From an uncultured Elusimicrobia bacterium (GTDB lineage: Bacteria; Elusimicrobiota; Elusimicrobia; UBA1565; UBA9628): a stretch of DNA of 64,000 nucleotides. The stretch spans positions 62,001 through 126,000 of the forward strand of contig CAIKVT010000036.1 of NCBI GenBank assembly GCA_903830945.1. Direction: 5' to 3'. Below the pieces are notes generated by a model. The model was not told the DNA's origin. It worked only from the letters and a program-made list of their open reading frames with translations, and searched no databases. This document shows, piece by piece, positions 7,707 to 61,738 of this stretch (positions within the stretch are counted from its first letter, which is position 1; every line of letters starts with the position of its first letter). The position numbers and the translations under genes are program-made.

Positions 7707-10700
7707 ATGATGCGTAAGGCTATCGCCGCTTTTCTGAGCCTGGCCCTTGTCGGCCTCTCCGCCGGTCTGCAACCTTGGCAGGCCATGGCTGCGGAGGTGG
7801 CTCCGGTGCGGGTCGCCGGCTCCGGCGCGCTGGTCGTCCCGCATGCGGCCGTAGGCGTCCAGCTCCAGCCGGCAGGCTTGACCGAGGCGTCTCTGTCTGG
7901 ATTGCAGGGGACCTTGAGGACGCTTTCGTCCCCCTCGGCGCTGCCCACGCTCTCGGCTTCCGCCGTCGCTCCGATCTCGGCCGCCTTTCCCCAGGCCCTG
8001 TCTCCGGCTTTGCCGGTCGCGCTCCCGGCGGCCCAGACACAGGAGGCGCCGCCCCAGACCGCTTTCCAGCGGACCATGCATAACCTCCAGGCGCCGTTCT
8101 TGGTGCAGGCTATTCCGGCTCAGGCCGGAAGCGAGATCGCGGCCGACTTGGCCGGACGTGATTTCGCGCAGAGGCTGGGTGAGAAGCTCCCTTTCAATGC
8201 AGCCGAAGCCGCAGCCCCGGTGGCGAGCGATCCAAGCTCGATCGTGCCGCGCCTGGAGCCTGCGGCGAGCCGGGGCTCGCTGTCTTCGCAGGAGCAGTTC
8301 GTTCTTCCCTCGCCGGAGGGGACCGCCGGTAAGCGGGCCAAGTCGCCGGTCTTTCCGGCCGTGGTCGCTGTGGGCGCGGCTCTGGTGTGGGAGGGCATCC
8401 GGGCCGCGGCGGCTCTGGCTGGCGGGGCCGCGGTCCATGCCGCGAGCGCGGCTCCGGTCTACACTGTTTTGCAGGCGGCGGCCGGTGTCGCAGGCTTCAC
8501 GGTGTTGGGCGCCGGCGCGGTCTTCGCCGCCAGCGCGCTCCTGGACCTCGGTGCCTACGCTTACGGTATGTGGAGGGGCCGACAGGTCACGGACGCGGAT
8601 TTCTGGGATTTCGTGCGTGGGGAAGTCATGGACGGCCGCATGGATGCCGGCGTCGCTGAGATGCTGCGGATCTACCGGCCCGGAAAGATCTCCTGGAGTA
8701 TGGACTTCGGGTTCACGGACGGCGACAACCTTCATCTTCGGCCCGAGCTCGCCGCTACTCCGTGGCTCTTCCGCCAGGTCCTCGGCCACGAGCTGCGCCA
8801 TCTGCGCGGCGGCCCCCAGCGCGGGCCGCCGGCCGGTCGCATCCGGGGTCTCTGGCGCCAATTCGCCTCCGAGCTCTATGCCCGGGCGGGAGAGTTCCAG
8901 GCCGCCAAGCTGATCGCGCGCATCCGCATCCCGGTCTTGGAGCGGGCCCTCCGTCTAGCCCAGCTTTCCTTGGCCCTGGCCAGGCCCTACGATGTGCTCG
9001 TGGTCAACGCCGGGTCTCCGGAACTCGAGAACCCCGCCATCTACCAGGCCCTTTCGGGCGGTCAAGCTCGCGTTTCGGTCGTCCAGGGCGCCGACCCGCA
9101 GGCGGTCTTGAGCGACGCTAAGAATTTCAGCCGATTTCAGGTGGTGGTCCTGGATCAGTCATCCACTCTTCTGCCGGAGGAGAGGTCTGCGGATTCCCAG
9201 CGACTGAGCCGGGCCCTGGGGCAGCTCGACGATCTCTTCTTGCTGGCCACGCGTCTCGTGCCGCAGGCCGGGGCTTTTTCCGACAATGCCGCTCACGCCC
9301 AGCGTTATCAGAGCCTGGCCGCCGTGGCAAGGGGCCTCGACTCCCGCGACAAGAGGGCGCGGGAGAATTTCGAGAAGCTGGTGCGCGAGTTCTGGCAGGA
9401 TATCGCCGCGACGCGTTTGAAGGGCCTAAAAGCCACCGATCTTGTGGCCTCTCTTTATGGCTCCATGCTTAATAAGGGTGTCGCTTTCCTGCCGTTCGGA
9501 CCCGAGGCTGAGGGCCTGCCGGTCTGGGAGAAGCTCCTGCGCTTCTGGGAGGCCAAGGACGGTGGTCAGTTCCGCCTTGTCCGCGTGGACCTGGAGGATG
9601 GCGGGCACATCCTCATCCTGCGTAAGATCGAGTCGCGCGTGGGACTCTGGCTGCGGCCGCAGAAGGGCTTCCTCGCCGTCACCATTCCGGATGCGGATGC
9701 TTCGAGCGAGGCCCGCGAGTCAGCGCGCACGGCGCTTTCCGCCGCGGGCTTTGCCGACCAGCTTGCCAAGTTAGACGAGTTGGGAGTCGAGATCCGTCAT
9801 GTTTTTGGCGCGGACGTTGGTCGCCAGGAGATCTATGTGACCGTGCCGCGGCGCAATGCCGGGGCGATCCGGCGCTTCGTCTCCGGCATCGCCATGGACG
9901 TGGGAGCCTCGCAGACCAACTTCGAGCCGCACCTCTTCGAGTCCGCCGAGCTGCATAAGGTCAAGCCTGTCTGGCAGGCCGGCATTACAGGCGTGGACGG
10001 TACCATCATGTGGATCGATACCGGTGCGGATAAGACCCATCCGGATTTCGAGGGGCGCCTGGACGTGGTGGATATGGTCAACGAGGGTCCCGAGGATTGG
10101 ATCGGGCACGGCACCCACGTGGCGGGCATCTCGATCTCTGGGGGTACTCCCTACACCGGCATGGCCAAAGGCGCACACGGCATCATGGCCAAGGTCTTCT
10201 CCCGGGAGAACCCCGGCGCCTCGGACGGCGAGATCATGGGCGCGGCTGCCATCGGCATGCAGAAGGGAGTCGACGTCATCAACTTGAGCCTGGGCAGCAA
10301 GGGCTCCTCCGGCGACAACCTGGCTACCTTCTTCTCTCAGCTCACGCACCGGAAGAACGCCAACGGCGAGTACCCCTTCGTGGCGGCCAGCGCGGGCAAC
10401 TCCGGGCCCTTCGACCAGACCTTGAGCCAGCCAGCGGCCGGGGAGGACGTCTTCGCCACCGCGGCCGCGGCCGTGGGCGAGGACGACCACTCCGCGGAGA
10501 TCGCCTTTTACAGTTCGGTGGGACCTGACGTGGATAAGCGTTACGCGGTCAAGCGCGTGCGACTCAAGCCAGACGCCACGGCCAAGGGCGGTAATGTCAT
10601 CACGGAGCCGGGCTCGCCCAACGTCTACCGCCTGGGCGTCTATTCCGCCAAGTCAAAGGACATGCCGAAGAATCCTTCGGATACGGCGGACGGCAAGTAC

Positions 10701-13700
10701 ACGGCCATGTCCGGCACTTCGATGTCTTCTCCCATGCTGGCCGGCATTGCGTTGCTGGTCCGGCTCGCTTTGGGTGTGACCGGGGTCGAGACCCCGTTCG
10801 TCAAGGAGCACAGTCCTCTGGTCCTCAAGGCCGTGATCATGCGCACCGCCGACGACATGCGGGTACCGGTCTGGTTCCAGGGCGCGGGGTTCATCGACGC
10901 CTGGGCCGCCGTTAAGCTCGTGGTCGAGTCCGTGGGCTACGTCTTGGGCAGCCGGGTGGCGCGGCTCTGGGCCAAAGTCAAGGGTGCCCAGGCCCCGCCC
11001 GCAGGCGATCCCTTCGAGTGGGTCGCACGCTATGAGAAGGTCTTGGGGCTCGAAGATAAGGTCTATAGCGCCGCCGAGTTGGCCAAGACGGAGGCCAAGG
11101 CTCGCTTCGACTACGGGGCCCAGGACGATGCGGCGGGTGGCGAGACTGCGGCCGACTCTCGTCAAGCCGCGGGAGGTGCCGTCGCATCCGCGGTGACAGC
11201 CAAATTCAACGCGGTCCGGGCCGAGGTCCTCTCCGATCTCTTGGCCGCGCTCCAGGACCCGGTCTGGCTGGTGCGGCGCCAGGCGGCCATGGCGTTCTTG
11301 AACCTCAAGACACCCGAGGCTGCCATGCCTTTGGCGGAGACGGCATTTAACGACGCCGACGGCCGCGTGCGGCAGATGGCGTTGTTGGCCCTGGCCGAGA
11401 ATCCCAGCCACGCCGCGGATGTCACTCTGCGGAAGGCTGTGGAGAGTCCGCTCTGGGACGTGGCAGTCTATTCCGCATATGCCCTGGCCCGGCATGGCGA
11501 CCGATCCGGGGTCAAGCGTATCCTCCTGGAGCTCTCCAACGCCGATAAAGCCGTGCGATTCTCGGTGACTTGGCTCTTGGGGCAGCTGGGGGACAAGGCC
11601 TCGGAGGGCGAGGCCGACGCCCTCTCGGCCTTGGTCCAGAATACGGCTGAGCGGGGCAACATCCGCCATCTGGCCGCCGCAGCCCTTTTCAATGTGGCCG
11701 CGGACCAGCCGGCTGCGGTGAGCGACCTCGTCATCAAGGATCTTCTCGGGGCCGCCGGGCCCCAGAATCTGGCCTTGACCCGCACCGTGGCCAAGTTCTT
11801 CCCGGTCGCCTTGCGCAACAAGGCCCTCGTGGTCCGCCTCCAGGCCGATCCACTTAAGTCCGTGGCGACTGATTTTGTGCTTAAGAACCGTGTCGCGGTC
11901 GGCCGGCCGGGCGCGCTGGGCGATCTGGTCCGCCTCCTGGCGAGGGTGGTCAACGTGCCTCTGGACATGCCCACGCCGGTGCCGGATCCGTCCGGCGCGG
12001 GCGTGCCAGGGGTGGATCCCGCCTTCGGCGACCTGGACGTCATCGTCGGCCTGCCCGAGGGTCGGGAGCTTTCCGCGTACCGTTCCTCGAGCGTCGGCGC
12101 CGTCGAGTCCCTTGTCGAGGCCGGCTTGCCGGCCTCGCTGCTGGCCAGGTACGGAGCCGAGTTCAAGGCCGGCTTGCCCTTGTCGCGAGCCCTCTGGCTG
12201 AGCGTGCCGGGCCATAAGTTTTTTGCTCTGAGCCTGGAGCTCCGGCACGCGGGCTATTCCGTGAGCCTGGCTCAGCCCGAGCACAGCCTCTCTCTGACTT
12301 CGCGCAGCGATGGCGTTGAGGATGGCCTTAGCGTGGACTTGAGCGAGGGACTGCCGGAGCTCCCCGCCGGCGCCGACCTGTCGTTGGTGCGCGTGACGGC
12401 CGCGAAGGGAGTCTCCGAGGCCAAGGTGATGGCCGCTCTGGAGGCCATCCGGGCGCGGGCCGCCGATCCCCTGAAGCATCCGGTCATGATCTCGGTCAGC
12501 CTGGGCAGCCAGGCCATGCCGGGGCCCGGGGCCCTGCCCGGCCTCATCGACCGATTGCTGCTCGACAACGTGGGCGTGGTCCTGCCGGCCGGCAACGAAG
12601 GCCCGGCCGAGGACTCTGTGTCGGCCCTGGCCCGGGGCAGCCTCGCTTTGGTGGTGGCTGCTGCCGGCAAGACCGAGGGCCTGGAGAGCTACTCGGCGCG
12701 GGGCTCGGCTCAGGCCCCTGCCATCTCCTGGGCTGACCTGGTTGACGATCTGGGCGCGGCCTTGCCTAGCCTGCAGGCCGCGGCCGGGTCTGCCGCACGG
12801 GCCATCCTGGGCGAGGACCCTTCAGCCGCATCAAGCGGGTCGAAGGCGGTCTCCATGGGCACGGGCGCGGCCGCCCAGCGCACCGCGGAGAAGCTCGCCT
12901 GCATGGCCCGCCGCATGGCGGAGATCTTCGCTTCCCGCACGGCGGCCCTGCCGCCGGGCTATTTCTTCTACCTCGTGGAACTCGTCCGGCGCACCTTGAG
13001 TCCCTTGCCTGGCCGTGAGGCCTATGAGACGGGCGAGGGAGTGTTCGACCGTCCGGCCAAGGCGATGGAGTTGCTGGAGACCCGGCTCTTGGATCCGTTC
13101 GCCGTGGAGCAGGAAGCCGTGGCGCTTGCTCGGACGGCGCGCCTGCGCTACCAGCAGAGCCTGACGGCCGGCAACCCGGCCGGGGCCGCACAGAAGGCGG
13201 TGTTCAGCGCCGCTCATGCGGTGGCCGGTCAGACGGTGGCCCAGCCGCGGCTTATTTCCGCCGTCACCGAATTGACCCGCCGTCTGGCCGGCGGCGACTA
13301 CCGTTTCTCGGCCGTCACTCCCCAGGACGGTTTCGGCTACGTCCGGCAGCTCCGGGCGGTCCTGGCCGCTGGCACGCAGACTGCGGGCGGCGCCATCGTG
13401 CCTTTCGTCTTCCGCAGGACCTCGGGTGGGACGCTCAAGGCCAGGGCCGCGGGGTTGGAGGGATTCCTCTACGCCAAGTTCGAGCTGGCCCGCGAAGGAA
13501 CCTTGGACCTGAGCCAGCTTGCCGACTATTTCCGCTATCTCGACGACCTGCTGGCGGGAATCGAGCGGGCCAAGCCTTTGCGCCGGGACCTTGCCGATAT
13601 CCGCGACTCCGAGGCCGACGCCGCGCAGAAGAACCGTCTTTTGGATTCCCGCCTCATCGCCGCGGCCCGCGAGTTTCAGATCGAGCTGCGGGCCGCGGAC

Positions 13701-14690
13701 GCTTACAATTGGTTCCGGCGCGCGGGCATCTATGAGCTTTCGTCCGGGGACTACGGCGCCGCGACAGTCGAGAGGAAGTTCTTCGACCTGCTCGATGATG
13801 GCGAGTTGCGGCGGATCCAATCGGCCGCACACGTCGACACGATCCTGCTCAGGACCGGATTCGGGGAGGACGGCGAGGAGGCTTTCCGGCGGTTGGTGCG
13901 GCGCGCACATTCCTTGGACCTTAAGGTCGCCGTGGAATGGACGGGATCGGAGGCTTTCGACGATGCCCGGGCCTCGGACCTGGGTGTGGACGTCGTGCGC
14001 CGGGATCGGAGCTACTTCGTCGGCGGTCAGAAGCTGGGTCTCGCCCAGGCCGGTCTTCATGATGCCCTTGCCGGTCGCGACGCGGACCGCATCCGCGCCG
14101 CGCTCCGGGATGCGGCCTTCTGCGCCTGGCAGCGCGGCGGGCCCGCGGGCGTCGGCGCCATGCTCCCGGTGCAGGCCGGGCGGTTCTGGAAAGCCGCGGC
14201 ACTGATCGCTTTGCTGCTGCGGCCGGTGGTGGTTGCGGCCGGTCCGGAGAGCGAGTTCTTGAAGTTCGTGTCCGCGAAGTCCGCGGAGTATCGGGATCTC
14301 CTGGAGCGGGGGACCATGGAGGTGCTCGACACCTCTCCGGGTACCCCCGTCGTGGCCTACGCGCTGAGCGCGGTGTCCGGGAAACATCGTAAGACCGTGA
14401 TCGCGGCGGCGAACTTCGCCGATCAGCGCAGCAGCGGGCTGTTTCGCTTCAAGGCGGCGCAGTCGGGCTTGGACGCGTTCGCGCCGGCCGCCGGTCAGGA
14501 CTACGTCCTGCGCGACTTGGCCGAGAATGACGCCGCCGGGCAGCCCGTGACTTATACCCGATCCGGCAGGGAGCTCTTGGAGCAGGGATTCTATATCGAG
14601 CTTGACAGCGGCGGCGTGCATCTCTTCGAGGTGGAAGAGGCTCTGCCGCCCCAGCTTGACTCTGACATTTTAAGACCTAAGACCCAATAG
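7707..14690 (+). CDS. Giant secreted multidomain subtilase (S8) with HEAT repeats, pseudo-S8 module and GH13-like C-terminus
   Basis: The 2,327-residue protein starts with a signal peptide (cleavage near AMA-AE) and an Ala-rich region. HELRH (361-365) is an HExxH-like zincin motif. An intact peptidase S8 domain follows: Asp771 in WIDTGAD, His801 in GHGTHVAG, oxyanion Asn898 in SAGNSGP and Ser1005 in SGTSMSSP. Residues about 1165-1380 are HEAT repeats. Residues about 1430-1750 look like a second S8 module: PAGADLSLVRV, ISVSLGS and PAGNEGP (Asn1630) are kept, but the His block is missing and the serine loop reads MGTGAAAQ with Gly1720. Residues about 1990-2327 resemble a GH13 fold lacking catalytic acids, with a typical beta C-domain (VIAAANFAD, GVHLFEVE). 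Likely an exported protease; substrate unknown. The ATG at 7710 is an alternative start. Confidence 0.85.
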   Translation: MMRKAIAAFLSLALVGLSAGLQPWQAMAAEVAPVRVAGSGALVVPHAAVGVQLQPAGLTEASLSGLQGTLRTLSSPSALPTLSASAVAPISAAFPQALSPALPVALPAAQTQEAPPQTAFQRTMHNLQAPFLVQAIPAQAGSEIAADLAGRDFAQRLGEKLPFNAAEAAAPVASDPSSIVPRLEPAASRGSLSSQEQFVLPSPEGTAGKRAKSPVFPAVVAVGAALVWEGIRAAAALAGGAAVHAASAAPVYTVLQAAAGVAGFTVLGAGAVFAASALLDLGAYAYGMWRGRQVTDADFWDFVRGEVMDGRMDAGVAEMLRIYRPGKISWSMDFGFTDGDNLHLRPELAATPWLFRQVLGHELRHLRGGPQRGPPAGRIRGLWRQFASELYARAGEFQAAKLIARIRIPVLERALRLAQLSLALARPYDVLVVNAGSPELENPAIYQALSGGQARVSVVQGADPQAVLSDAKNFSRFQVVVLDQSSTLLPEERSADSQRLSRALGQLDDLFLLATRLVPQAGAFSDNAAHAQRYQSLAAVARGLDSRDKRARENFEKLVREFWQDIAATRLKGLKATDLVASLYGSMLNKGVAFLPFGPEAEGLPVWEKLLRFWEAKDGGQFRLVRVDLEDGGHILILRKIESRVGLWLRPQKGFLAVTIPDADASSEARESARTALSAAGFADQLAKLDELGVEIRHVFGADVGRQEIYVTVPRRNAGAIRRFVSGIAMDVGASQTNFEPHLFESAELHKVKPVWQAGITGVDGTIMWIDTGADKTHPDFEGRLDVVDMVNEGPEDWIGHGTHVAGISISGGTPYTGMAKGAHGIMAKVFSRENPGASDGEIMGAAAIGMQKGVDVINLSLGSKGSSGDNLATFFSQLTHRKNANGEYPFVAASAGNSGPFDQTLSQPAAGEDVFATAAAAVGEDDHSAEIAFYSSVGPDVDKRYAVKRVRLKPDATAKGGNVITEPGSPNVYRLGVYSAKSKDMPKNPSDTADGKYTAMSGTSMSSPMLAGIALLVRLALGVTGVETPFVKEHSPLVLKAVIMRTADDMRVPVWFQGAGFIDAWAAVKLVVESVGYVLGSRVARLWAKVKGAQAPPAGDPFEWVARYEKVLGLEDKVYSAAELAKTEAKARFDYGAQDDAAGGETAADSRQAAGGAVASAVTAKFNAVRAEVLSDLLAALQDPVWLVRRQAAMAFLNLKTPEAAMPLAETAFNDADGRVRQMALLALAENPSHAADVTLRKAVESPLWDVAVYSAYALARHGDRSGVKRILLELSNADKAVRFSVTWLLGQLGDKASEGEADALSALVQNTAERGNIRHLAAAALFNVAADQPAAVSDLVIKDLLGAAGPQNLALTRTVAKFFPVALRNKALVVRLQADPLKSVATDFVLKNRVAVGRPGALGDLVRLLARVVNVPLDMPTPVPDPSGAGVPGVDPAFGDLDVIVGLPEGRELSAYRSSSVGAVESLVEAGLPASLLARYGAEFKAGLPLSRALWLSVPGHKFFALSLELRHAGYSVSLAQPEHSLSLTSRSDGVEDGLSVDLSEGLPELPAGADLSLVRVTAAKGVSEAKVMAALEAIRARAADPLKHPVMISVSLGSQAMPGPGALPGLIDRLLLDNVGVVLPAGNEGPAEDSVSALARGSLALVVAAAGKTEGLESYSARGSAQAPAISWADLVDDLGAALPSLQAAAGSAARAILGEDPSAASSGSKAVSMGTGAAAQRTAEKLACMARRMAEIFASRTAALPPGYFFYLVELVRRTLSPLPGREAYETGEGVFDRPAKAMELLETRLLDPFAVEQEAVALARTARLRYQQSLTAGNPAGAAQKAVFSAAHAVAGQTVAQPRLISAVTELTRRLAGGDYRFSAVTPQDGFGYVRQLRAVLAAGTQTAGGAIVPFVFRRTSGGTLKARAAGLEGFLYAKFELAREGTLDLSQLADYFRYLDDLLAGIERAKPLRRDLADIRDSEADAAQKNRLLDSRLIAAAREFQIELRAADAYNWFRRAGIYELSSGDYGAATVERKFFDLLDDGELRRIQSAAHVDTILLRTGFGEDGEEAFRRLVRRAHSLDLKVAVEWTGSEAFDDARASDLGVDVVRRDRSYFVGGQKLGLAQAGLHDALAGRDADRIRAALRDAAFCAWQRGGPAGVGAMLPVQAGRFWKAAALIALLLRPVVVAAGPESEFLKFVSAKSAEYRDLLERGTMEVLDTSPGTPVVAYALSAVSGKHRKTVIAAANFADQRSSGLFRFKAAQSGLDAFAPAAGQDYVLRDLAENDAAGQPVTYTRSGRELLEQGFYIELDSGGVHLFEVEEALPPQLDSDILRPKTQ

Positions 14691-14791: not shown

Positions 14792-17700
14792 ATGGTCCAA
14801 AGCAACAGCCGACATCATCTTAAGCAAGCGCTTTGCGCGCTCATCATCAATGCCCTGCTGTTTGCTCAGCAGGGTTTCCTGTTACAGGCCTTCGCCGCGA
14901 CCGTCGTCAGCGCGCCCCAGACCGTTTCCGGTGCGGGAGTCGTCGGAGGCGTGGGCACTACCCTGGGCTCGGCGTCTTCCCTCTCCGGCATCAATTTCTC
15001 GCTTGACCGCACTGTATTCAATCTGCCCCAGACCGCTTGGGGTGCGGCCCCGACGGTCATCTTCCAGCTTGCTCTACAGCCTGCCGCCGCTCCGGCGGGG
15101 GCGGCGGTCGGCTCTGTCGCGGCCCAGGCGGCGACCTCTGTCCGCCTGGCGCAAGTCTCGGAGAGTCTCCAGACCGATTTCAAAGCCATCGATAAGCAGG
15201 ACGTGCCGGGCGATCAAGCCCAGAGTCTGGGCGGCCGCGTCATGGATAAGGTCCTGGGGCAGAAGATGCCGGACCTGCCCCCCCTGGCCGAGCCCGTCGC
15301 CCTTGTCGAAACTTCACACCATAGCGCCAAGATCCACGCCGCGCTCAACAACGGAGCGCATGGCCCCGCGGCCCAGCAGAGCCGCGATGGTTCCTGGTGG
15401 AAAGATCCTGCCGCCCAGCATATAGCCGTCACAGTCCCGCTTTACGCCCTGCGCCGCGCCGAGGGCGACCCGGGCATCGGCAAGTTCACGGACCTCGGCG
15501 CGTACTACCGTGACGCGCTCGTCCCGCAGGGTGTAGACACCATCCATCTCCTGCCTCATTTCGCGGTGCTCGACGAGAGCCCTTACGCGCCGGTGAGCCT
15601 CTACGCCTTAAATGAGAGCAATATCGACTGGGCGGCTGTCGATGAGGTCAAGAACGACCCGGAGCTGCTTGCCAAACTCGCGGTCACGGACCAAGCCGAG
15701 CGGGAGGCGGTCAACTATCAAGCCCTTTGGACCAGGGAGGAAACGGTGGCGCAGGCGGCCTACCGCATCTTCCAGCGCGACCACGTCGCGCCTGGGACCT
15801 CTCGGCTTCAGGACTACCTGGCTTTTCTCAAGGAGAATGCCTATTGGGTCGACGACTACGCCGAGTTCATGGCCCTCTCCCGGCTCATTGGCAAGCCGTC
15901 CTTGTTGTGGACCAAGGACGACGAGCAGCGCGCCCGGAACGATCCCCGATTCACCCTGCTCCAGAACACGCACTACTACGCCCAGTGGAACGCCTTCCAG
16001 CAGTTCGGATCGGCGATGGACACTATCCATCAGGCCGGAGGGCACGTGCTCTTCGACATTCCCATGTTCCGCGCCAAGAACTCGGTGGACGCCTGGAAGC
16101 ATCCCGAGTACTTCAAGGATCTCAAGACCCGCAATCCGGGCATCGTGAACCAGTGGATCCATGAGGACTGGCTGGACTTGGCTTTGTGGGACTGGACTAA
16201 GCTCAAGAGCGAGGGCTATCGTGTCATGCTCGACCCGTTCCGACATTGGCTTAACCTGGGCTTTGACGGCGCGCGGGTGGACGCCCTGCATTTCGCCTAC
16301 AATTTCGGCAACGGTCAGCTGGCCAGCGGCGATGAGCCGGGAGACGATTACGTCCGCGCCCTGGGCGAGGTGCTCAAGGCCAGCGGTGCCTTTCCTTTGG
16401 CCGAGGCTTTCGAGGGCAAGGCTGAGAACGCCCAGCGCTATGGCTTTGTCACGGTCTATGGGGATTGGAAGAAGCTGAGTTCCCACGATGATCCCAGAAG
16501 CGAATGGTTCATGGCGCGTCTGCTTGATTTGAGCCGGCAATCGACCTCGGGCCGGAACGGCAGTTTCGTGGGTTACACTTTAGGAGATGAGTGGAACGAT
16601 CCGGTTCCGGTGAAAGTGGTCAAGGACGGTAATTCCTACTGGCGCTACCGCATCCCTGTGCCTTCGGACCCTGATTACAAGAACCGAGTGCGGACCGACA
16701 ACCGGGGCCAAATGGGGGGCTGGAAGGCCATGAAGGAAGGCGACATCTGGAAGGCCGTGGGGCCGCTCTGGAGCGCCTTTAAGATCGCGGGCGACAGCTT
16801 CGTCAAGCATTTCAACGACTCCGTGCAGATCTGGGCCGCGAGCCTGGATTGGTTTCAAGAGGAATGGGGTCGCGACACCTTCATCTCTTTGCCGGGACTG
16901 CTGCTCTCCACCGGCCGCGCCGCCGAGGCCAAAGAGAACATGCGCAACTTCGCCAAGTACGAGCATGATGGGCTGATCCCGAACCGGATCCGGGATGCTG
17001 CGCGCTGGTCATCGACCACACCTGACGGCGTGGAGTACAACACCGTGGATGGCTCCATGTGGTTCATACAGGCGGTGAAGAAGTACGCGGAGACCACCAA
17101 TGACGCCGCTTTCGTCGAGGAGATGCTGCCGCTGCTGCGGCGCGTGATGGACCGCTACGCTTCGGGAACGGGCTACGACCGCTACGGCCGTTTCAACCGG
17201 ATCTCTATGGACACGGATGGGCTGATCGTGAGTCCGGCCCAGGCGACTTGGATGGACGCGGACCCGGAAGGCCGCGACCACCCGGTCACGCCGCGCAACG
17301 GCAAGGCCGTGGAGATCAACGCCTTATGGTACGCGAACCTGCGCTTCCTGGCCCGGCTGGAGCGCCAGTCAGACCACGAGTCCGCAGCCCAGGCCTTGGA
17401 CTCCCGCGCGGACTTGGTCAAGAAGTCTTTCAATGAGAAGTTCTGGTACGTCAGTGAGGACAGCCGGAAGGCCTGGGGAGGCTTGGGCGGGGCCTTGGCC
17501 GACGTGGTGGAAGGCGACCCGCATTCTCGGGCCATCCGGCCTAATATGCTCTTCGCGGTGAGCCATGGCGAGGACCTCTTGAGTCCGGAACGCCAGGCGG
17601 CCGTGGTCCAGGCCGCGACCCGGGATCTGCTCACGCCTTATGGGATGCGCACCCTGTCTTATCGCGACAGCCAATATCACGCGACCTACGATACCTCGCA

Positions 17701-18112
17701 GCCGCCGATCGTGAAGGATCAAGCCTACCACCAGGGCACGGTGTGGCCTTGGCTGATGGGCACCTACGTGGACGCCTTGGCGCGCGTGCGGAGGGCCCAG
17801 GGTTGGGACGAGGGCCGCATCCGAGACGAGGTCCGTGGGGTCATGACGCCTTTGGTCGAGTTCCTGGTGAGCCAGCCCGAGGGGTCCTTGCCTGAGGTTT
17901 TCGACGGCGGCCAGCCGGCAGACGCACTGCGGCGTTTCTCCTTGGCCGACCCGCTGGGCCTGCGTGACGTCATCGTGAACATTCTGCGCAGTCAGAACAG
18001 GGGAGGTACGCGCTCTCAGGCCTGGAGCGTGGCTGAGGCGATCCGCGTGCTGGTGGAGTACGGCCTAGTCGGCGCCGTTGCGCGGATGCAGCCAAGGCAG
18101 CTGCCGGACTAA
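14792..18112 (+). CDS. Secreted glycogen-debranching-type enzyme: GH13 domain fused to amylo-1,6-glucosidase domain
   Basis: A 1,106-residue protein with a signal peptide (hydrophobic core ALCALIINALLFAQQGF) and an Ala/Ser-rich linker to about residue 200. The GH13 barrel has VDTIHLLP, nucleophile Asp497 in GFDGARVDALH, acid/base Glu538 in LAEAFEG and His-Asp566 in SSHDDP, so all three acids are present. From about residue 670 the amylo-alpha-1,6-glucosidase (GDE_C) domain follows: WGRDTFISLPG (Asp695), GLIPNRI, YNTVDGSMWFI, ATWMDA, GKAVEINALWY, RPNMLFAVS, LTPYGMRTLS, YHQGTVWPWLMG and QAWSVAEA. The pair would transfer maltosyl units and hydrolyse branch points in glycogen or starch. Export is unusual, because debranching enzymes normally act in the cytoplasm. 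It follows the giant subtilase, whose C-terminus is a degenerate GH13-like domain. Confidence 0.93.
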   Translation: MVQSNSRHHLKQALCALIINALLFAQQGFLLQAFAATVVSAPQTVSGAGVVGGVGTTLGSASSLSGINFSLDRTVFNLPQTAWGAAPTVIFQLALQPAAAPAGAAVGSVAAQAATSVRLAQVSESLQTDFKAIDKQDVPGDQAQSLGGRVMDKVLGQKMPDLPPLAEPVALVETSHHSAKIHAALNNGAHGPAAQQSRDGSWWKDPAAQHIAVTVPLYALRRAEGDPGIGKFTDLGAYYRDALVPQGVDTIHLLPHFAVLDESPYAPVSLYALNESNIDWAAVDEVKNDPELLAKLAVTDQAEREAVNYQALWTREETVAQAAYRIFQRDHVAPGTSRLQDYLAFLKENAYWVDDYAEFMALSRLIGKPSLLWTKDDEQRARNDPRFTLLQNTHYYAQWNAFQQFGSAMDTIHQAGGHVLFDIPMFRAKNSVDAWKHPEYFKDLKTRNPGIVNQWIHEDWLDLALWDWTKLKSEGYRVMLDPFRHWLNLGFDGARVDALHFAYNFGNGQLASGDEPGDDYVRALGEVLKASGAFPLAEAFEGKAENAQRYGFVTVYGDWKKLSSHDDPRSEWFMARLLDLSRQSTSGRNGSFVGYTLGDEWNDPVPVKVVKDGNSYWRYRIPVPSDPDYKNRVRTDNRGQMGGWKAMKEGDIWKAVGPLWSAFKIAGDSFVKHFNDSVQIWAASLDWFQEEWGRDTFISLPGLLLSTGRAAEAKENMRNFAKYEHDGLIPNRIRDAARWSSTTPDGVEYNTVDGSMWFIQAVKKYAETTNDAAFVEEMLPLLRRVMDRYASGTGYDRYGRFNRISMDTDGLIVSPAQATWMDADPEGRDHPVTPRNGKAVEINALWYANLRFLARLERQSDHESAAQALDSRADLVKKSFNEKFWYVSEDSRKAWGGLGGALADVVEGDPHSRAIRPNMLFAVSHGEDLLSPERQAAVVQAATRDLLTPYGMRTLSYRDSQYHATYDTSQPPIVKDQAYHQGTVWPWLMGTYVDALARVRRAQGWDEGRIRDEVRGVMTPLVEFLVSQPEGSLPEVFDGGQPADALRRFSLADPLGLRDVIVNILRSQNRGGTRSQAWSVAEAIRVLVEYGLVGAVARMQPRQLPD

Positions 18113-20468: not shown

Positions 20469-21529
20469 CTCATTTCTCCCAAGATAAAGCGGACGGCTTG
20501 GCGGATGCTGGACTCAGGTACATGGGCGTTCACAAGCGGCCGTCCTACGCCTTTCAAGAGTATGAATCGCGGGCGGCCGCGGCGGGTCTTCTTGTCCTGT
20601 CGCAAGGCACGCAGCACATCGGATTCACGCAGGCGCAGTCGGGGCACGGGCATGAGACGCAGGAAGGCGTCTAGGTCGTCGGCGGTGCGCGCGGGTAGTC
20701 CGGCGCAGGATTGCGAGAGGCGCAACGCGGCGCGCATGCCGCAGACTACGGCTTCGCCGTGGCGTAAAGGCCCGAAGCCGGCGGCCGCTTCCACGGCATG
20801 GCCGACCGTGTGGCCAAAATTCAGCATCTCGCGCAGGCCCCTGGTCTCGCGCGGGTCGCGGCTGACTACGGTTGCTTTCCCGGAGGCGGCGCGGCGTATC
20901 CAGCGATCCAGGGAGGCTGGTTCGCCGGCCAGGAGCCGCGGCCAGTCCTGCCGTAGTCCGCTCAGCAGGAGAGGGTCCCGGACCATCCCAAGTTTGACTG
21001 CCTCGGCTAAGCCGCAGAGGCGCTCGCGCCGGGATAAGGTGGAGAGAAAGTCCGTGTCGCAGACTACGGCCAGGGGCTGGTGGAAGGCTCCAACGAGGTT
21101 CTTGCCTTCGGCCAGGTCTATAGCGGTCTTGCCGCCGATGCCGGCGTCCACTTGGCCTACGAGCGTCGTGGGCAGGCTGAGCCAGGGGATTCCGCGCTTG
21201 TAGACTGCGGCGGCGAAGCCAGCCGCGTCTGTGACCGAGCCTCCGCCCAGCGCCAGGATGGCTGAGTCGCGGCCCAAGCCCCGGCGCAGCATCGTTTGCA
21301 GGAGTCGGGAGACCGCGTCCCAAGTCTTGGCCCTTTCGCCGCCGGGTAAAAGATGCCGGCTCGTCCGGATCCCGGCGCGGCGCAGGGCCGAGGCGACTGT
21401 TGCCCCATGCAGCCGCCAGGCCTTTGGCTCGGAAACCAGCATGAGGCGGCCGCCGGGGGGCAGGCCTTTGAGCCATTGCCGGGGCCGCAGGGCCAGGCCG
21501 CGTCCGATGAGCACCATGGCAGGCATCAT
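20465..21529 (-). CDS. aroB: 3-dehydroquinate synthase
   Basis: Second shikimate step: DAHP to 3-dehydroquinate, an NAD- and metal-dependent enzyme. The NAD-binding loop GGGSVTDAAGFAAA, the substrate block PTTLVGQVDAGIGGKTAID, KNLVGAFHQP, the metal-binding Glu in AEAVKLGM, and the two metal-binding His positions NFGHTVGHA and RHGEAV are all present. The start at 21529 overlaps the aroK stop in an ATGA pattern and gives 354 residues; an ATG at 21517 is the alternative. The N-terminal domain is slightly short compared with typical AroB. Confidence 0.95.
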   Translation of the reverse strand: MMPAMVLIGRGLALRPRQWLKGLPPGGRLMLVSEPKAWRLHGATVASALRRAGIRTSRHLLPGGERAKTWDAVSRLLQTMLRRGLGRDSAILALGGGSVTDAAGFAAAVYKRGIPWLSLPTTLVGQVDAGIGGKTAIDLAEGKNLVGAFHQPLAVVCDTDFLSTLSRRERLCGLAEAVKLGMVRDPLLLSGLRQDWPRLLAGEPASLDRWIRRAASGKATVVSRDPRETRGLREMLNFGHTVGHAVEAAAGFGPLRHGEAVVCGMRAALRLSQSCAGLPARTADDLDAFLRLMPVPRLRLRESDVLRALRQDKKTRRGRPRFILLKGVGRPLVNAHVPESSIRQAVRFILGEMR

Positions 21530-22044
21530 AGCAAACAGCTTTTGAGCTTCCGAGTGATGAGTGCAGCGGCTTGCGCGGGGGTGCGTTGGGTTGTCGAGAC
21601 GGAGATATCCGCCTGACTGTACAGGCCGCGGCGTTGGGCCAGGAGTCGGCGCATGCGCCCGCGACGCTGGGGCCCGGAGCCTAACAAGGGACGTAGTGCG
21701 GCGTCGTCGCGCAGGCGGATCCATAGTCGATCTTCGGCGCAGGTCATGCATACCAGGATGCCGGAATCGGCCACGAGCCTGCGATTCTTGGGGGAGAGCA
21801 GGGCGCCGCCGCCTAAAGCGACGACGAGTCCTTGGCGCCGGGCTGTTCGGCGCAAGGCTTGCGACTCGGACCGGCGGAAAGCGGCTTGCCCGCGGCTGAA
21901 AAGTTCGGCGATGGTCCGTCCTGTGCTGCTTTCGATGTGGGTGTCGAGGTCTACGAAGTTCCGTCGAAGCCTGCGGGCGAGTCTGCGACCCACCGAGGTC
22001 TTTCCCGTTCCCATGAAGCCGGTCAGATAGATGGTGTCAGGCAT
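21526..22044 (-). CDS. aroK: Shikimate kinase
   Basis: Phosphorylates shikimate at O3 using ATP. The 172-residue P-loop kinase has Walker A GFMGTGKTSVG, the shikimate-binding DLDTHIE block, a Walker B-like GGGALL, and the lid region around RPLLGSG. Length is normal for AroK/AroL. The start lies 9 bases after the aroC stop and the stop overlaps the aroB start. Confidence 0.95.
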   Translation of the reverse strand: MPDTIYLTGFMGTGKTSVGRRLARRLRRNFVDLDTHIESSTGRTIAELFSRGQAAFRRSESQALRRTARRQGLVVALGGGALLSPKNRRLVADSGILVCMTCAEDRLWIRLRDDAALRPLLGSGPQRRGRMRRLLAQRRGLYSQADISVSTTQRTPAQAAALITRKLKSCLL

Positions 22045-22053
22045 TCTTGGGGT

Positions 22054-23166
22054 TCACTGACGCAGGGACCGCAACCGAGGCAGGATCTCCCGCATGGAGT
22101 CGCCGCCTGTCTTTTCCAGCAAAGCCTCGGCCAGGACCAAAGCGACCAAGGCCTCCGAGATGACGGCCGCCGCGGGCACGGCGCAGACGTCTGAGCGCAG
22201 CGCCGGAGCCGGGGAGGCTTGTCCGGTCTTGAGGTCTATCGAGGGTAGGGGCAGGGCCAAGGTTGGCAGAGGCTTCATGGCTGCGCGCAGGTACAAGGGT
22301 TCGCCCGTGGTCACGCCTCCGTCGATGCCGCCGGAGCGGTTGCTCCTGTAGGCGGCCCGGCCCGCTTTCCAGTAATAGGAGTCGAGAGCCCGGGAGCCGG
22401 GCAAGGCCGCAGCCTCGAAGCCCAGCCCTATGGCCACGGCCTTGATGCCGTTGAGAGCCATGAGCGCTCCGGCCAGGCGGCCATCGAGGCGTCGGTCCCA
22501 GTGGGCGTAGCTTCCCAGGCCCGGGGGCAGGCCCTCGGCCCAGACCTCGAAGATGCCGCCTAAGGTGTCTCCTGCGCGGCAGGCGCGCTCTATCGCCCGA
22601 GCCATGCGGCGTCCCACTGCCGGGCTCGTGGCGCGCGCCGGTGAGGCGTCGGCCCGGGCGTTGAGCAGGCAGACTTCGCAGGGCCGTGCCGAAGGGTCTG
22701 CCTCTCGTCCTATGCGGATCACCCGGCTGGCCACGGCGATGCCGCATTCATTCAGGAAGCTTTTGGCAACGGCGCCTAAGGCCGTGCGTGCAGCGGTTTC
22801 CCGCGCGCTGGCGCGCTCGCTCACGTCGTGCAGGTCCGTGAATCCATATTTGCGCGCTCCGGCCAGGTCGGCATGGCCGGGTCGTGGGACCGTGAGCGCG
22901 GGTTGGCCGCCGTCGCCGCGGTCCTCGTTGGGTATGCGGATCGCGATGGGGGAGCCCAAGGTCCGGCCGTGCCTCACCCCGGAGATGATCTCGACGCGGT
23001 CGCTTTCGAGGCCTTGGCGTGGACTGCGGCCGGTGCCGAGTTTGCGGCGGGCCAGCTCGAGCTGGATGGACGCGGGGAAGATCCTTAGGCCCGCGGGCAT
23101 CCCTTCCAAGATACCGATGAGGGCGGGGCCGTGGGATTCGCCGGCGGTGAGCAATCTCAAGGGCAT
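22054..23166 (-). CDS. aroC: Chorismate synthase
   Basis: Final step: EPSP to chorismate, dependent on reduced FMN. The 370-residue protein carries the family signatures GESHGPALIGILEG at the N-terminus, RHGRTLGSPIA, RPGHADLAGARKYG, RASARETAARTALGA, the central SRAL(D)SYYW region, and RSNRSGGIDGG. The internal ATG at 23166 is chosen because it begins directly at the conserved MPLRLLTAGESHG; longer upstream frames are shadows of aroE. It overlaps the end of aroE by 10 bases. Confidence 0.96.
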   Translation of the reverse strand: MPLRLLTAGESHGPALIGILEGMPAGLRIFPASIQLELARRKLGTGRSPRQGLESDRVEIISGVRHGRTLGSPIAIRIPNEDRGDGGQPALTVPRPGHADLAGARKYGFTDLHDVSERASARETAARTALGAVAKSFLNECGIAVASRVIRIGREADPSARPCEVCLLNARADASPARATSPAVGRRMARAIERACRAGDTLGGIFEVWAEGLPPGLGSYAHWDRRLDGRLAGALMALNGIKAVAIGLGFEAAALPGSRALDSYYWKAGRAAYRSNRSGGIDGGVTTGEPLYLRAAMKPLPTLALPLPSIDLKTGQASPAPALRSDVCAVPAAAVISEALVALVLAEALLEKTGGDSMREILPRLRSLRQ

Positions 23167-23987
23167 GGGAGTCTCTCCAGGAGGCGGTTTTTTAGGGTGG
23201 CGCGTCGAGGCGCGCCCAGGGGGCCGAACCAGAATTCCCAGGAGCGTAGGGCTTGGGACACGAGCATGCCGCTGCCGCCCAGCACGCGGGCGCCTAGGCG
23301 TTGGGCTTGGCGCTGGAAAGCGGTGCGGCGGCCGTAGACCAGGTCCAAGGCCAGGCCGCAGCCCGGCCAATCCGGAGCCGCCGGTGAGCGGTCCGGCAAG
23401 CCCAGCAGGCCCAGCGGTGTGGCGTTGACGGCGAGGTCCACGGCCGCGGGGCGGCCCGCGGTGAAGACGGTGCTCGGGAAGCTCGCGGCCATGGCGCGGG
23501 CCAAGGCCAGGGCCGCTTCGGGACGGCGCGCGGCGATGGTGACGCGGCGGGCGCGCAGGCGGCCCAGGGCGCAAAGCACGGCCCGGGCCGCGCCGCCCGC
23601 TCCGAAGACGAGAGCGTCGCGGCCGGCGACCGTGAACCCCGACTCCCGCAAAGTGTCGGTGAAGCCGGATGAGTCCGTATTGTGGCCCAGGAGTCGGCCT
23701 TGGCCGCAGCGGATGACGTTGACAGCGCCGGCGAGCCTGGCTTCGGGGGTCAGGCCGTCGAGCAAACCGACGATGGCCACCTTGTGGGGCACCGTCACGT
23801 TTCCGCCCAGCATCCCGGACCATCGCAGGAGCTCGACTGCGCAGGTCAGCCGCTCGGAGGGGACGTCGCAGGCGCGGTAGAGCACCTTGCGCCGGGTCAG
23901 GCGGCCGAGGTCGGCCATGAGGCGCGGGGAGAAGGAATGCGCGACGGGGTGCCCCAGGAGGCAGAGCTTCACGGATTCTCGGGGCAC
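23157..23987 (-). CDS. aroE: Shikimate dehydrogenase
   Basis: NADPH-dependent reduction of 3-dehydroshikimate. The 276-residue protein has the substrate-binding GHPVAHSFSPRLM, catalytic Lys in NVTVPHK, HNTDSSGF, the dinucleotide loop FGAGGAARAV, the basic NADP-selective stretch AARRPEAA, and VNATPLGL. The start codon is GTG; a CATAAT lies 5 bases upstream, so a local leaderless promoter inside the aro cluster is possible. A 55-base gap separates it from aroA, the largest gap in the cluster. Confidence 0.94.
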   Translation of the reverse strand: MPRESVKLCLLGHPVAHSFSPRLMADLGRLTRRKVLYRACDVPSERLTCAVELLRWSGMLGGNVTVPHKVAIVGLLDGLTPEARLAGAVNVIRCGQGRLLGHNTDSSGFTDTLRESGFTVAGRDALVFGAGGAARAVLCALGRLRARRVTIAARRPEAALALARAMAASFPSTVFTAGRPAAVDLAVNATPLGLLGLPDRSPAAPDWPGCGLALDLVYGRRTAFQRQAQRLGARVLGGSGMLVSQALRSWEFWFGPLGAPRRATLKNRLLERLPCP

Positions 23988-24042: not shown

Positions 24043-25323
24043 TCAGGTCCCGGAGAAACGCTTGAGCTCGGCGCAGAATCCAGGGTAGGAGACCGCGATG
24101 CTCTCGGCGCCGGCCACCGTTGTCCGGCCGGCCGCGATGAGCCCGGCCACGGCCGCGGTCATGGCGAGCCGGTGGTCTCCCCTCGGATCGAAGCGGGCAC
24201 CGTGCAGGCGAGCCGGCCCGCTCACCACGAGATTTCCGCCTTCTACCCGTGCCCGGGCTCCGAAGAGCCGCAGAAGCCGGACGGTCCCGGAGAGCCGGTC
24301 GCTTTCCTTGCGGCGTAGTTCGGCCAGGCCCTGGAACCGGCTGGTTCCTTCGGCCTGGCTCGCGGCTAGGGCAAGAAGAGGTATTTCGTCGATGAGGCCG
24401 GGAGCCTCTTTGGTGGAAGTCGTGGTCGCTGTCAGAGCCGCTGATCGGATCAGGAGGCCGCATGCGGGTTCCGGCTTGCCGGTCAAGGCTGAGCCGGCGA
24501 TATGCGCGCCCATGCGCCGCAGGACCCGTAAAAAGCCCGTGCGGCCTGGATTGGCGCCTATGCGAGGCAGGCGCAGCCAGCTGCCCGGCACTATAGTGGC
24601 GGCTACGACCCAGAAAGCGGCGGAGGACGCGTCACCCGGTAGGCGCCAACGGACTGCTCGCAGGCGGGCGGGGCCCGTGATTGCGGCGGTCCGACCTCGG
24701 CGAGCGACCTGGACGCCGAAAAATGGCAGGAGTCTCTCCGTGTGGTCGCGGCTGGGAAGCGGCTCAGTGACCGTGGTCTTGCCTTGCGCGAGCAGACCCG
24801 CCAAGAGCACCGAGCTTTTGAGCTGTGCGCTTGGCGCCGGAGAGGCCCATCGGATGTCGTGCAGGTCCGCGCCGTGGATCTGAGCGGGCAGACGGTCGCC
24901 GCCGAGCAGGCGGATGCGGGCTCCCATGCGCCGCAGGGGCTCGGCCAGGCGGCCCATGGGCCGGCGGCGTAAAGAGGCGTCTCCCGTGAGCCGGGCCGCG
25001 AAGGGCTGTCCCGCCAGTAGGCCCATGAGCAGGCGCGCCGTGGTCCCGGAGTTTCCGGCGTCGAGGCTGCGCTTCGGCGGCCGCAGGCCGCGCAGGCCCC
25101 GGCCGCGGACCTCGACTGTTCCGCCCCGACGGATGATCGACACGCCCAACCGCTTCAGGCAGCTTTGGGTCGCCAGGACATCCTCGGAGTCGGGCATGTC
25201 GAGGAGGCAGGAGACGCCTTCGGCTAAAGCGGAGAAGACTAGTGCGCGGTGCGCGATGGACTTGTCTCCTGGAACTGTGATCGTGCCGCGCAAAGGCCGG
25301 CCGGGTCGGACCTCAAGTAACAT
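24043..25323 (-). CDS. aroA: 3-phosphoshikimate 1-carboxyvinyltransferase (EPSP synthase)
   Basis: Joins PEP to shikimate-3-phosphate. The 426-residue protein has the family motifs PGDKSIAHRALVFSALA (Lys-Ser of the active site), DAGNSGTTARLLMGLLAG (PEP-binding NSGT), RRPMGRLAEPLRRMG, LKSSVLLAGLLA, GDASSAAFWVVAA, DEIPLLALAA (catalytic Asp-Glu) and RRKESDRL. The ATG at 25323 starts just before the conserved VRPGRPLRG; the longer open frame upstream runs into aroF and is not used. Eleven bases separate it from the aroF stop. Confidence 0.95.
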   Translation of the reverse strand: MLLEVRPGRPLRGTITVPGDKSIAHRALVFSALAEGVSCLLDMPDSEDVLATQSCLKRLGVSIIRRGGTVEVRGRGLRGLRPPKRSLDAGNSGTTARLLMGLLAGQPFAARLTGDASLRRRPMGRLAEPLRRMGARIRLLGGDRLPAQIHGADLHDIRWASPAPSAQLKSSVLLAGLLAQGKTTVTEPLPSRDHTERLLPFFGVQVARRGRTAAITGPARLRAVRWRLPGDASSAAFWVVAATIVPGSWLRLPRIGANPGRTGFLRVLRRMGAHIAGSALTGKPEPACGLLIRSAALTATTTSTKEAPGLIDEIPLLALAASQAEGTSRFQGLAELRRKESDRLSGTVRLLRLFGARARVEGGNLVVSGPARLHGARFDPRGDHRLAMTAAVAGLIAAGRTTVAGAESIAVSYPGFCAELKRFSGT

Positions 25324-25334
25324 CAGGCGGCGTG

Positions 25335-26147
25335 TCACGCCAGCTTGCGGTCGAGCGTGGTGAGTTGGCTCATGAGCGCGCGAAACTCGTCGAGATGCAA
25401 AGACTGGTGCGAGTCTGAGAGAGCGGCTTCTGGATTTTCGTGGACCTCGACCATGAGGCCGTGCGCCCCGGCCGCGGCCGCGGCGCGGGAGAGCTGCGTC
25501 ACGAGGCTCCGGTCGCCGGCGGCATGGCTGGGGTCCACCACGACCGGTAGGCGGCTTAGCTCGCGCACGGCTGCAACGGCGCCGATGTCCAGGCTGCAGC
25601 TGGTCGTCTCCTTTGATTGGCGCTGGCCGCGCTCGCAGAGGATGACTTGAGGGTTGCCGGCGTAGAGCACGTACTCGGCGGCCAGGAGCCACTCTTCGAT
25701 GGTGGCGCAGAGGCCGCGCTTGAGCAGGACCGGCTTATGCGCACGGCCTAACTCCTTAAGGAGGGGGAAGTTCTGCATGTTGCGCGCTCCGACCTGGAGC
25801 AGGTCGGCGACTTCGGCGACGGCGTCGAGGTCGCGTAGGTCGAGGACCTCGGTGACCACCGGCAGTCCGGTTTGGCGCTTGGCGGCGGCGAGTATGCTCA
25901 GGCCTGTTCGGCCCAGGCCCTGGAAGCTGTAGGGTGAGGTGCGCGGTTTGAATACGCCGCCGCGCAGCATGTGCGCGCCCGCGGCCTTGACCGCGGTCGC
26001 GGTGCGCATGTAAGTCTCTTCGCCCTCCACGGAGCAGGGGCCGGCGATGACGATGAGGTCGGCTTCGCCGAACTTCAGGCCGCCGATGTTCACGATGAGA
26101 TCCCCGGGGTTCTCTTCGCGGCCGGCGAGGCGGTAAGGTGAGGTCAT
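25335..26147 (-). CDS. aroF: 3-deoxy-7-phosphoheptulonate (DAHP) synthase, type I beta
   Basis: First committed step: PEP plus erythrose-4-phosphate to DAHP. The 270-residue protein shows VIAGPCSVEGEE, GAHMLRGGVFKPRTSPYSFQGLG, VTEVLDLRD, LLQVGARNMQNFPLL, KPVLLKRG, and VVVDPSHAAGDRS, typical of the KDO8P-like, regulator-domain-free class. There is no ACT or chorismate mutase extension, so feedback control by an attached domain is not expected. The start overlaps the stop of the asparaginase-like gene (ATGA). Confidence 0.95.
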   Translation of the reverse strand: MTSPYRLAGREENPGDLIVNIGGLKFGEADLIVIAGPCSVEGEETYMRTATAVKAAGAHMLRGGVFKPRTSPYSFQGLGRTGLSILAAAKRQTGLPVVTEVLDLRDLDAVAEVADLLQVGARNMQNFPLLKELGRAHKPVLLKRGLCATIEEWLLAAEYVLYAGNPQVILCERGQRQSKETTSCSLDIGAVAAVRELSRLPVVVDPSHAAGDRSLVTQLSRAAAAAGAHGLMVEVHENPEAALSDSHQSLHLDEFRALMSQLTTLDRKLA

Positions 26148-30005: not shown

Positions 30006-30118
30006 TCTTAATGCGCCGCGCCCGCGGCTGCGGGTAGGAGGGCGAAGGCGGACTGTTTCGACTTCAGGGAGTTCGGGTATCTAAGAAGAACGGCAACGGT
30101 GATAGCCACCCGACGGCT

Positions 30119-30175
30119 CACCCGGCCCCTCATGGGGGCCGGGTGGTTTCGCGTCTCGCTTCGCGAGATGCGAAA
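30119..30175. terminator. Two hairpins downstream of the DsbA-like gene
   Basis: Stem one: CACCCGGCCCC (30119-30129) with 30135-30145, 11 bp. Stem two: TTTCGCGTCTCGC (30147-30159) with 30163-30175, 13 bp with one G-U pair and loop TTC. They lie 10-66 bases past the DsbA-like stop on the reverse strand and probably end that transcript. Confidence 0.55.
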
Positions 30176-30184
30176 GGCGGGACG

Positions 30185-31000
30185 TCAATGTTTCTTGGCC
30201 GCCTCGTCGATCTGCTTGATGATCTCGTCGAAGTGTTCGGCTGGGTAGGCGCCGCGGACCGGTACGCCGTTGATGAGAAAGCCCGGCGTGCCGTCGAAGC
30301 CGAGGCTCTCGGCTTCCTTGATGTCGGCGTCGATGGAGTCCTTGACGGCCTGGCTCTGCAGGTCTATCTTGATCTTCTCGACGTCGAGCCCCAAGTCCTT
30401 GGCGGTCGCTTCGAAGAACTCGTCGCCCAGCTTGTCCTGGTTCAAGAAGAGCTTGTCGTGAAAGGCCCAGGCCTTTTCCACGTTCTGCAGGGTCGCGGCT
30501 TCGAGCCATTGGGCCGCGGGTCCGGCCTTGGGGTGGAAGGGCAGGGGCTTGTTCTTGAAGATGAAGCGCAGGTCCTTGCCGTACTTTTCGCGCAGGGCTT
30601 CAGCGATCTTGTAGCCGCCCGGGGCCCCGTTGGGGGTCTTGGGGCCGCAGTAGGGACACTGGAAGTCCGAGTATTCGACCAAGGTGTACTTCGCCTTCTC
30701 GTTGCCGCGGATGCGCGTCTTCTTGGTGACGGCAGGTTTTAAGGGATTCTTGATGTGATCTTCCATCTCCTTGGCCTGAGCTTCCTGTTGTTCCTTCTGC
30801 CGGCGCGTCTGCTCTTCCTGCGCGGCCTGCTGCACGATTTCGAAGAAGTCCTTCTTGTTCTGGCGCAGGACATCGAGGATGAGGCCGGGGTTGGCGTCAA
30901 GCGCCTTCTTGAGGTCGTCGCGGGTCAGTTCGGCGGCGGAGGCGGCGGCCGCCAGGGAAAGCGCGACTATGGCGAACGTCAGCGAGCGCAGTGTCATCAT
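30185..31000 (-). CDS. DsbA-like periplasmic thiol-disulfide oxidoreductase
   Basis: The 271-residue exported protein has a signal peptide (LTFAIVALSLAAAASA). An N-terminal helical region (LTRDDLKKALDANPGLILDVL, then a Gln/Glu-rich coiled coil to about 80) resembles that of BdbD/DsbA-type proteins with thioredoxin_4 folds. The active site is CPYC (Cys115, Cys118) in SDFQCPYC. The cis-Pro region is GFDGTPGFLING. It likely introduces or isomerises disulfides in exported proteins, such as the Cys-rich proteins seen here. An AAGGAG supports a start at 31000 or 30997; a longer upstream frame has no ribosome site. Confidence 0.9.
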   Translation of the reverse strand: MMTLRSLTFAIVALSLAAAASAAELTRDDLKKALDANPGLILDVLRQNKKDFFEIVQQAAQEEQTRRQKEQQEAQAKEMEDHIKNPLKPAVTKKTRIRGNEKAKYTLVEYSDFQCPYCGPKTPNGAPGGYKIAEALREKYGKDLRFIFKNKPLPFHPKAGPAAQWLEAATLQNVEKAWAFHDKLFLNQDKLGDEFFEATAKDLGLDVEKIKIDLQSQAVKDSIDADIKEAESLGFDGTPGFLINGVPVRGAYPAEHFDEIIKQIDEAAKKH

Positions 31001-61357: not shown

Positions 61358-61738
61358 ATGATCTGCACATCCTGCAAGAAGACCGAGGCCGTGGTCTTCA
61401 TTAAGCACATCATCGATAACCAGGTCTCCCAGGCCGCGTTCTGCGCTGCCTGCGCGGCTAAGGCGCACGTTCCGCTCAACCCCGTCAATCCCATGGCCGC
61501 CCTCCTGCAGCTCGCGGCCAAGGCCGGCGCGTCTCGCGCCAGGGTCTCGGCCGCGGCGCGCTGTCCGGGCTGCGGCACGAGCTGGACGGATTTCCGTGAG
61601 ACCGGTCGTCTGGGCTGCGCGTGCTGTTATGACCATTTCGCGGATCTCTTGCGGCCTCTTGTCCCCCGGGTCCATGCGGGCGCCTACGTCCATCGCGGCA
61701 AATCCCCGCAGACCCCGCCCCGGCGGTCTAGCGCATGA
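61358..61738 (+). CDS. mcsA: McsA-like zinc protein, activator of arginine kinase
   Basis: The 126-residue protein has two CxxC zinc pairs at the N-terminus (ICTSC and FCAACA) and another group CPGCGTSWTDFRETGRLGCACCYDHF, the McsA signature, then LRPLVPRVHAG near the end. McsA binds McsB and supports arginine phosphorylation and stress proteolysis. The stop overlaps mcsB by 4 bases (ATGA). No ctsR precedes it. The region upstream holds the 82-bp repeat. Confidence 0.9.
   Translation: MICTSCKKTEAVVFIKHIIDNQVSQAAFCAACAAKAHVPLNPVNPMAALLQLAAKAGASRARVSAAARCPGCGTSWTDFRETGRLGCACCYDHFADLLRPLVPRVHAGAYVHRGKSPQTPPRRSSA

Follow-up and report, generated by a model that had tools for sequence, protein, structure and literature searches.

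A predicted exported protease scaffold with alternating alpha-glucan enzyme partners in uncultured Elusimicrobiota

Introduction

The described proteins closest to the one analysed here belong to separate systems. Tk-SP of Thermococcus kodakarensis (PDB 3afg) is a pro-subtilase of the S8A family; the gluzincins include the peptidase families M48, M56 and M78; the GH13 alpha-amylase family is recognised by a nucleophile Asp, an acid Glu and an HD motif; and indirect debranching enzymes combine a GH77 4-alpha-glucanotransferase with a GDE_C amylo-1,6-glucosidase. In bacteria, indirect debranching enzymes are usually cytoplasmic.

We analysed a window of 64,000 nucleotides from an uncultured Elusimicrobia bacterium (GenBank assembly GCA_903830945.1, contig CAIKVT010000036.1, positions 62,001 to 126,000), located on contig C36 of a 3.24 Mb genome that is 99% complete. 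An earlier note, made from the letters of the window, described one giant protein running from a signal peptide through an intact subtilase, HEAT repeats and a second S8-like module to a degenerate GH13-like C-terminus, an order of domains that its author did not recognise. Every one of these domain assignments stands. The unfamiliarity of the architecture is borne out in part: a literature search in a partial open library found no described family joining all modules of the protein, and each module is known while their combination was not found described there; relatives in the same order, however, share its scaffold and explain its odd parts.

Results

The open reading frame at 7707..14690 (+ strand) starts with ATG and encodes 2327 amino acids, in which Pfam identifies Peptidase_S8 and HEAT repeats and nothing C-terminal of these. 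We observed collinear homologues with 72–78% identity in two congeners and a core identity of 35–58% across the order, and dN/dS in the S8 domain is 0.08–0.12, indicating that the reading frame is a real gene; the dN/dS values also rule out decay of the gene as a whole. We refer to the exported protease scaffold common to this reading frame and its relatives as the platform. The search in other genomes that the earlier note had proposed recovered it from the congeners and from other genera of the order. Named relatives are Elusimicrobia assemblies, several of them from groundwater; G000 is the window genome, g1 its genus and f1 its family within the order.

The genes flanking the platform encode housekeeping functions (an S1 protein, a PLP enzyme, an acyltransferase and shikimate genes), and we found no operon partner among them besides the adjacent gene for a debranching enzyme (GDE, see below). 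This setting, which has no uptake genes, bears on the possibility that the platform and its partner serve to trim the alpha-glucan capsule or glycoproteins of the cell itself and not food, as does the occurrence of the platform in one copy per genome: both would suit such envelope remodelling. However, no glucan synthesis genes were seen beside the platform, and the transporter-like membrane domain of partner GH13 proteins points to uptake, and we consider remodelling very improbable. Elsewhere in the window, chorismate synthase and EPSP synthase reading frames (22054–23823 and 24043–25692) carry N-terminal extensions of ~220 and ~130 aa, respectively, without a Pfam match, and a protein with an ATP:guanido phosphotransferase catalytic domain (61735–62787) is possibly a McsB-like protein arginine kinase.

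The protein begins with a signal-peptide-like stretch (residues 1–29; 7707..7793, +), recognised by its hydropathy and AMA-type end, followed by a fast-evolving header rich in Ala, Pro and Leu (residues 30–212; 7794..8342, +). An FDG[GA] motif occurs in the headers of six ORFs only, including GDE, GH13 and platform proteins; we dropped it as a candidate shared sorting signal because six are too few. Two hydrophobic segments (residues 213–284; 8343..8558, +) form a possible membrane hairpin according to hydropathy, alignment and helices in the structural model, and the scaffold is probably tethered to the inner membrane. Directly behind them, alignment and motif search revealed a zincin-like HExxH module (residues 286–428; 8562..8990, +). 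The hairpin, the HExxH module and the I9-like prodomain described below are all absent from the earlier note.

The HExxH module contains HELRH at residues 361–365 (H361, E362 and H365; 8787–8801, +) and then E389-x-x-A-R-x-x-E, in which E389 (8871–8873, +) is a candidate third ligand; this pattern is invariant in 20 aligned members, and the HExxH itself is intact in 22 of 25 platform homologues. Among 335 genomes of the phylum, 38 encode the module, nearly all of them within this order, and it is single-copy in each save for one broken copy. Its closest Pfam families are mostly zincins (M78, E 0.018; M48, 0.073; Zincin_1, 0.19), all below threshold, and a PDB profile search with the module returned a single irrelevant match, CENP-X. 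Thus, the module is likely a putative metallopeptidase. In the same class, a weak match to it lies within a single open frame of 17,755 aa (G047, contig C5, near 21469–21660).

The S8 subtilase domain (residues 745–1080; 9939..10946, +) is supported by Pfam and by PDB sequence and fold matches. The Pfam match covers residues 770–1056 with an E-value of 6.7e-35 and 121.2 bits, against a gathering score of 21.8. The triad reported in the earlier note is present at exactly those residues (D771, 10017–10019; H801, 10107–10109; S1005, 10719–10721, +), with N898 (10398–10400, +) as the oxyanion residue, and is complete in 22 of 25 platform homologues. A model of residues 200–1130 (pLDDT 79.9, pTM 0.75) matches subtilases, with Tk-SP and its propeptide at the top (E 1.4e-18); for the S8 domain, no PDB entry matches better by fold than Tk-SP, which is also one of the two top sequence matches. 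In this model, strands and helices in the segment preceding the S8 domain (~residues 644–735; 9636..9911, +) follow one another as in an I9 prodomain, and the segment matches ProN-Tk-SP. The stretch around the S8 start also matches a single open frame of 10,571 aa in the same class (G056, contig C42, near 30011–30463).

Domain search and structure prediction of the remaining C-terminal part, proposed as a check in the earlier note, gave results of unequal strength. The HEAT-repeat solenoid (~residues 1160–1420; 11184..11966, +) was recovered directly: from residue 1176, Pfam reports HEAT_2 (E 3.7e-12) and HEAT (E 1.5e-6), with 46.8 bits against a cut-off of 27.7, and the helical solenoid matches alphaRep by PDB sequence and by fold comparison. 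A model of residues 1130–2327 (pLDDT 78.4, pTM 0.42) matches designed HEAT proteins and also TIM-barrel hydrolases with a beta domain, the latter with poor superposition.

Searched alone, the second S8 domain (residues 1528–1815; 12288..13151, +) gave only a marginal match to a subtilisin-like protease (E 0.025). However, relatives carry complete S8 domains in the corresponding position, and it is homologous to these. In family f2 the second S8 is complete, with LDEGGD, GHGTHG or SHGTHG, AAGNEGP or AAGNSGP, and GTSMAAP; the one member scanned with Pfam gave a strong score for it. By contrast, the window and the aligned f1 members have lost the triad: the part with Asp and His is missing, and GTG or GTA stands in place of GTS. 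The second S8 of the window is therefore a pseudoprotease whose ancestor was a working tandem protease.

The GH13 part (residues 1830–2327; 13194..14687, +) has no Pfam match and no PDB sequence match when searched alone, but it aligns over its full length with intact GH13 proteins, with E-values down to 1e-50. The GH13-like C-terminus is therefore GH13 by descent: its intact relatives keep the nucleophile (RRDMAY), the acid (DEAY or DEVY) and the HD motif. The window has three deletions in common with the two congeners (G002 and G006), which remove the PNH region, the acid-Glu region and the HD region, and their shared boundaries point to a single ancestor of the deletions. Since the general acid and the stabilising Asp are deleted, the residue set of an active enzyme is absent in all three; the Asp of RRD is kept in G000 and G006 and lost in G002. 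With dN/dS of 0.32–0.38, as compared with the S8 values above, constraint on this remnant is relaxed, not free.

Across the order, intact GH13 is fused to the platform in G005, G016 and G022, and in more divergent form in G008 and G009; it occurs as a standalone protein in G014, G020, G034, G044 and elsewhere. Separate partner GH13 proteins (L059, L066, L064, L077 and L073) have a C-terminal multi-helix membrane domain of ~350 aa, one of which matches the PQ-loop family (E 4.3e-5). This suggests that the partner GH13 may be fused to a sugar-transporter-like domain. Two further proteins carry GH13 of this family: a 2048-aa protein of G056 (L063:2-6145) with a sub-threshold Peptidase_M50-like stretch (862–967), which may mark a different kind of protease alongside this GH13, and a contig-cut ORF of 1234 aa from another family of the class (L069, G055), which joins it to HEAT repeats.

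The next gene on the same strand, 101 bases from the platform reading frame, encodes an exported debranching enzyme (14792..18112, +) with a GH77-like domain (residues 215–497; PF02446, 110.3 bits) and a GDE_C domain (residues 666–1042; PF06202, 315.1 bits), both above the Pfam cut-off. It contains the motifs GARVD, AEAFEG, HDD and WGRDT, and its sequence shows a signal peptide of its own. In genera g8, g9 and g12, the same GH77/GDE is fused to the platform behind the second S8, in ORFs of ~2,640–2,870 aa; at that place, g3, g4, g11, g16 and the g1 genome G005 carry an intact GH13. Where GDE and GH13 proteins are separate, they have predicted export signals followed by long low-complexity headers.

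The coexistence of fused and separate partners, the headers of the separate forms and the position of the first S8 as the segment under strongest constraint would all suit a maturation machine, in which the S8 protease, perhaps with the HExxH module, mainly releases or activates an exported glucan enzyme by cutting the fused linker or the header of the separate form. However, we identified no cleavage site, and a tandem S8, a HEAT solenoid and an HExxH module exceed the needs of a single-site processing enzyme. Moreover, the catalytic Asp of the platform S8 is lost (D to G) in L048, L047 and L058 (genomes G016, G022 and G009, respectively), in which the residues for catalysis are intact in the fused GH13. 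We consider maturation an unlikely account of the platform. As judged from these residues, the three proteins show the reverse of the state in the window, which suggests that proteolysis is not always needed.

We next compared the distribution of the two partners among 56 genomes of the order, 39 with the platform and 17 without. Platform genomes encode GDE in 23 cases and intact GH13 in 13, never both; three (G040, G042 and G058) have neither. This avoidance gives p = 7e-8 by Fisher's test, uncorrected for descent, and the platform tree requires at least five to six switches between the partners. Descent-independent pairs include none that changed in the same direction and ~5 that changed in opposite directions, with p ~0.06–0.13 (median 0.06 for six pairs and 0.125 for five); with so few independent contrasts, this test cannot reliably reach significance. 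Note that many genomes are draft assemblies, and hence single absences may be gaps.

Within the order, GDE of this kind occurs with the platform in 23 of 23 genomes and never without it (p = 1.5e-5). GH13 is also found in 6 of the 17 platform-less genomes and shows no association with the platform (p = 1), so its link to the platform is drawn from fusion and alternation only. Fusion, in turn, is weaker evidence of joint function here than usual because fused ORFs of great length occur in this phylum (17,755 and 10,571 aa, above). The lack of association of GH13, these giant ORFs and the small number of independent contrasts favour the view that exported scavenging enzymes merely coexist in a freely gene-fusing phylum, with GH13 and GDE excluding one another through mutual redundancy rather than through the protease. 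This view leaves unexplained that GDE never occurs without the platform in the order and that both enzymes are fused at the same place, behind the second S8; we regard it as improbable, to about the same degree as maturation.

The history of the partners in g1 is not that of the platform. The g1 platform groups with other f1 platforms, whereas the g1 GDE groups with f2 GDE and not with other f1 copies (support 98/97), indicating that the g1 GDE was acquired separately; inheritance of one GDE throughout family f1 is accordingly unsupported. Trees that unite the f2 and f3 GDEs are also disfavoured (AU p 0.003). Two g1 genomes, G003 and G005, have an intact GH13 and no such GDE, with the platform and GH13 of G003 lying on two contig ends, such that fusion there is unproven. 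The simplest account is that a g1 ancestor with a built-in GH13 gained an adjacent GDE gene, and that the GH13 active site was presumably lost afterwards.

Discussion

Our best reading is that the platform is a predicted exported protease scaffold whose alpha-glucan partner is exchangeable and acts in cis or in trans. The earlier note had suggested that the protein handles proteins and glucans together. Fusion of the platform to two alpha-glucan enzymes and their strict alternation agree with this idea, and at the cell envelope the handling of proteins is probably linked to that of glucans. The GH13 of the window itself, however, is catalytically dead, and the adjacent exported GH77/GDE would have to supply any glucan activity. 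That platform and glucan enzyme are functionally coupled at the envelope for joint breakdown is a proposal to which we give about an even chance.

Under this proposal of joint breakdown, the S8 protease would be made as a zymogen, free itself from its prodomain and cut an envelope or extracellular protein, while the HEAT and pseudo-S8 domains may hold the substrate or the partner. The glucan enzyme would act beside the platform, in cis when fused and, in the window, in trans through the adjacent GDE. In the window lineage, GDE would have taken over the glucan step and the built-in GH13 would then have lost its active site, perhaps persisting under relaxed constraint as a structural or docking remnant. 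The most likely purpose would be to break down protein and alpha-glucan jointly where the glucan is protein-bound or protein-coated, yielding oligosaccharides for uptake; glycogen particles from dead cells are a guess at one such substrate.

The scaffold persists through reciprocal loss of S8 and GH13 activity residues, suggesting that its role may be constant and that either catalytic part can become dispensable. A more specific version, in which GH13 and GH77/GDE repeatedly swap as a cartridge on the scaffold and the dead GH13 persists as a domain on which GDE docks, we advance only tentatively. Two glucan enzymes alternating on one protease platform, together with the fossil of a replaced enzyme, make an unusually clear record of domain replacement. 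They also lead to the prediction that, at the envelope of uncultured Elusimicrobiota, proteolysis is coupled to the breakdown of alpha-glucans; how these bacteria feed is poorly understood.

The platform resembles each of the known systems in part. It shares with Tk-SP the triad, the I9-like prodomain directly before it and predicted export; the HExxH module, the membrane hairpin, the HEAT repeats, the second S8 and the glucan domain are, to our knowledge, absent from Tk-SP. The HExxH module resembles gluzincins in its strand and helix with HExxH, its conserved ExxAR..E and its preceding hydrophobic hairpin, but it reaches no family threshold, M78 being the best. The C-terminus of the window protein is homologous to intact members of the GH13 alpha-amylase family, but its active-site regions are deleted, and Pfam and NCBIfam give weak scores even to its intact relatives. 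Finally, the neighbouring enzyme and the fused C-termini of g8, g9 and g12 match both Pfam families of indirect debranching enzymes, and differ from these in being predicted to be exported and in being tied to a protease platform.
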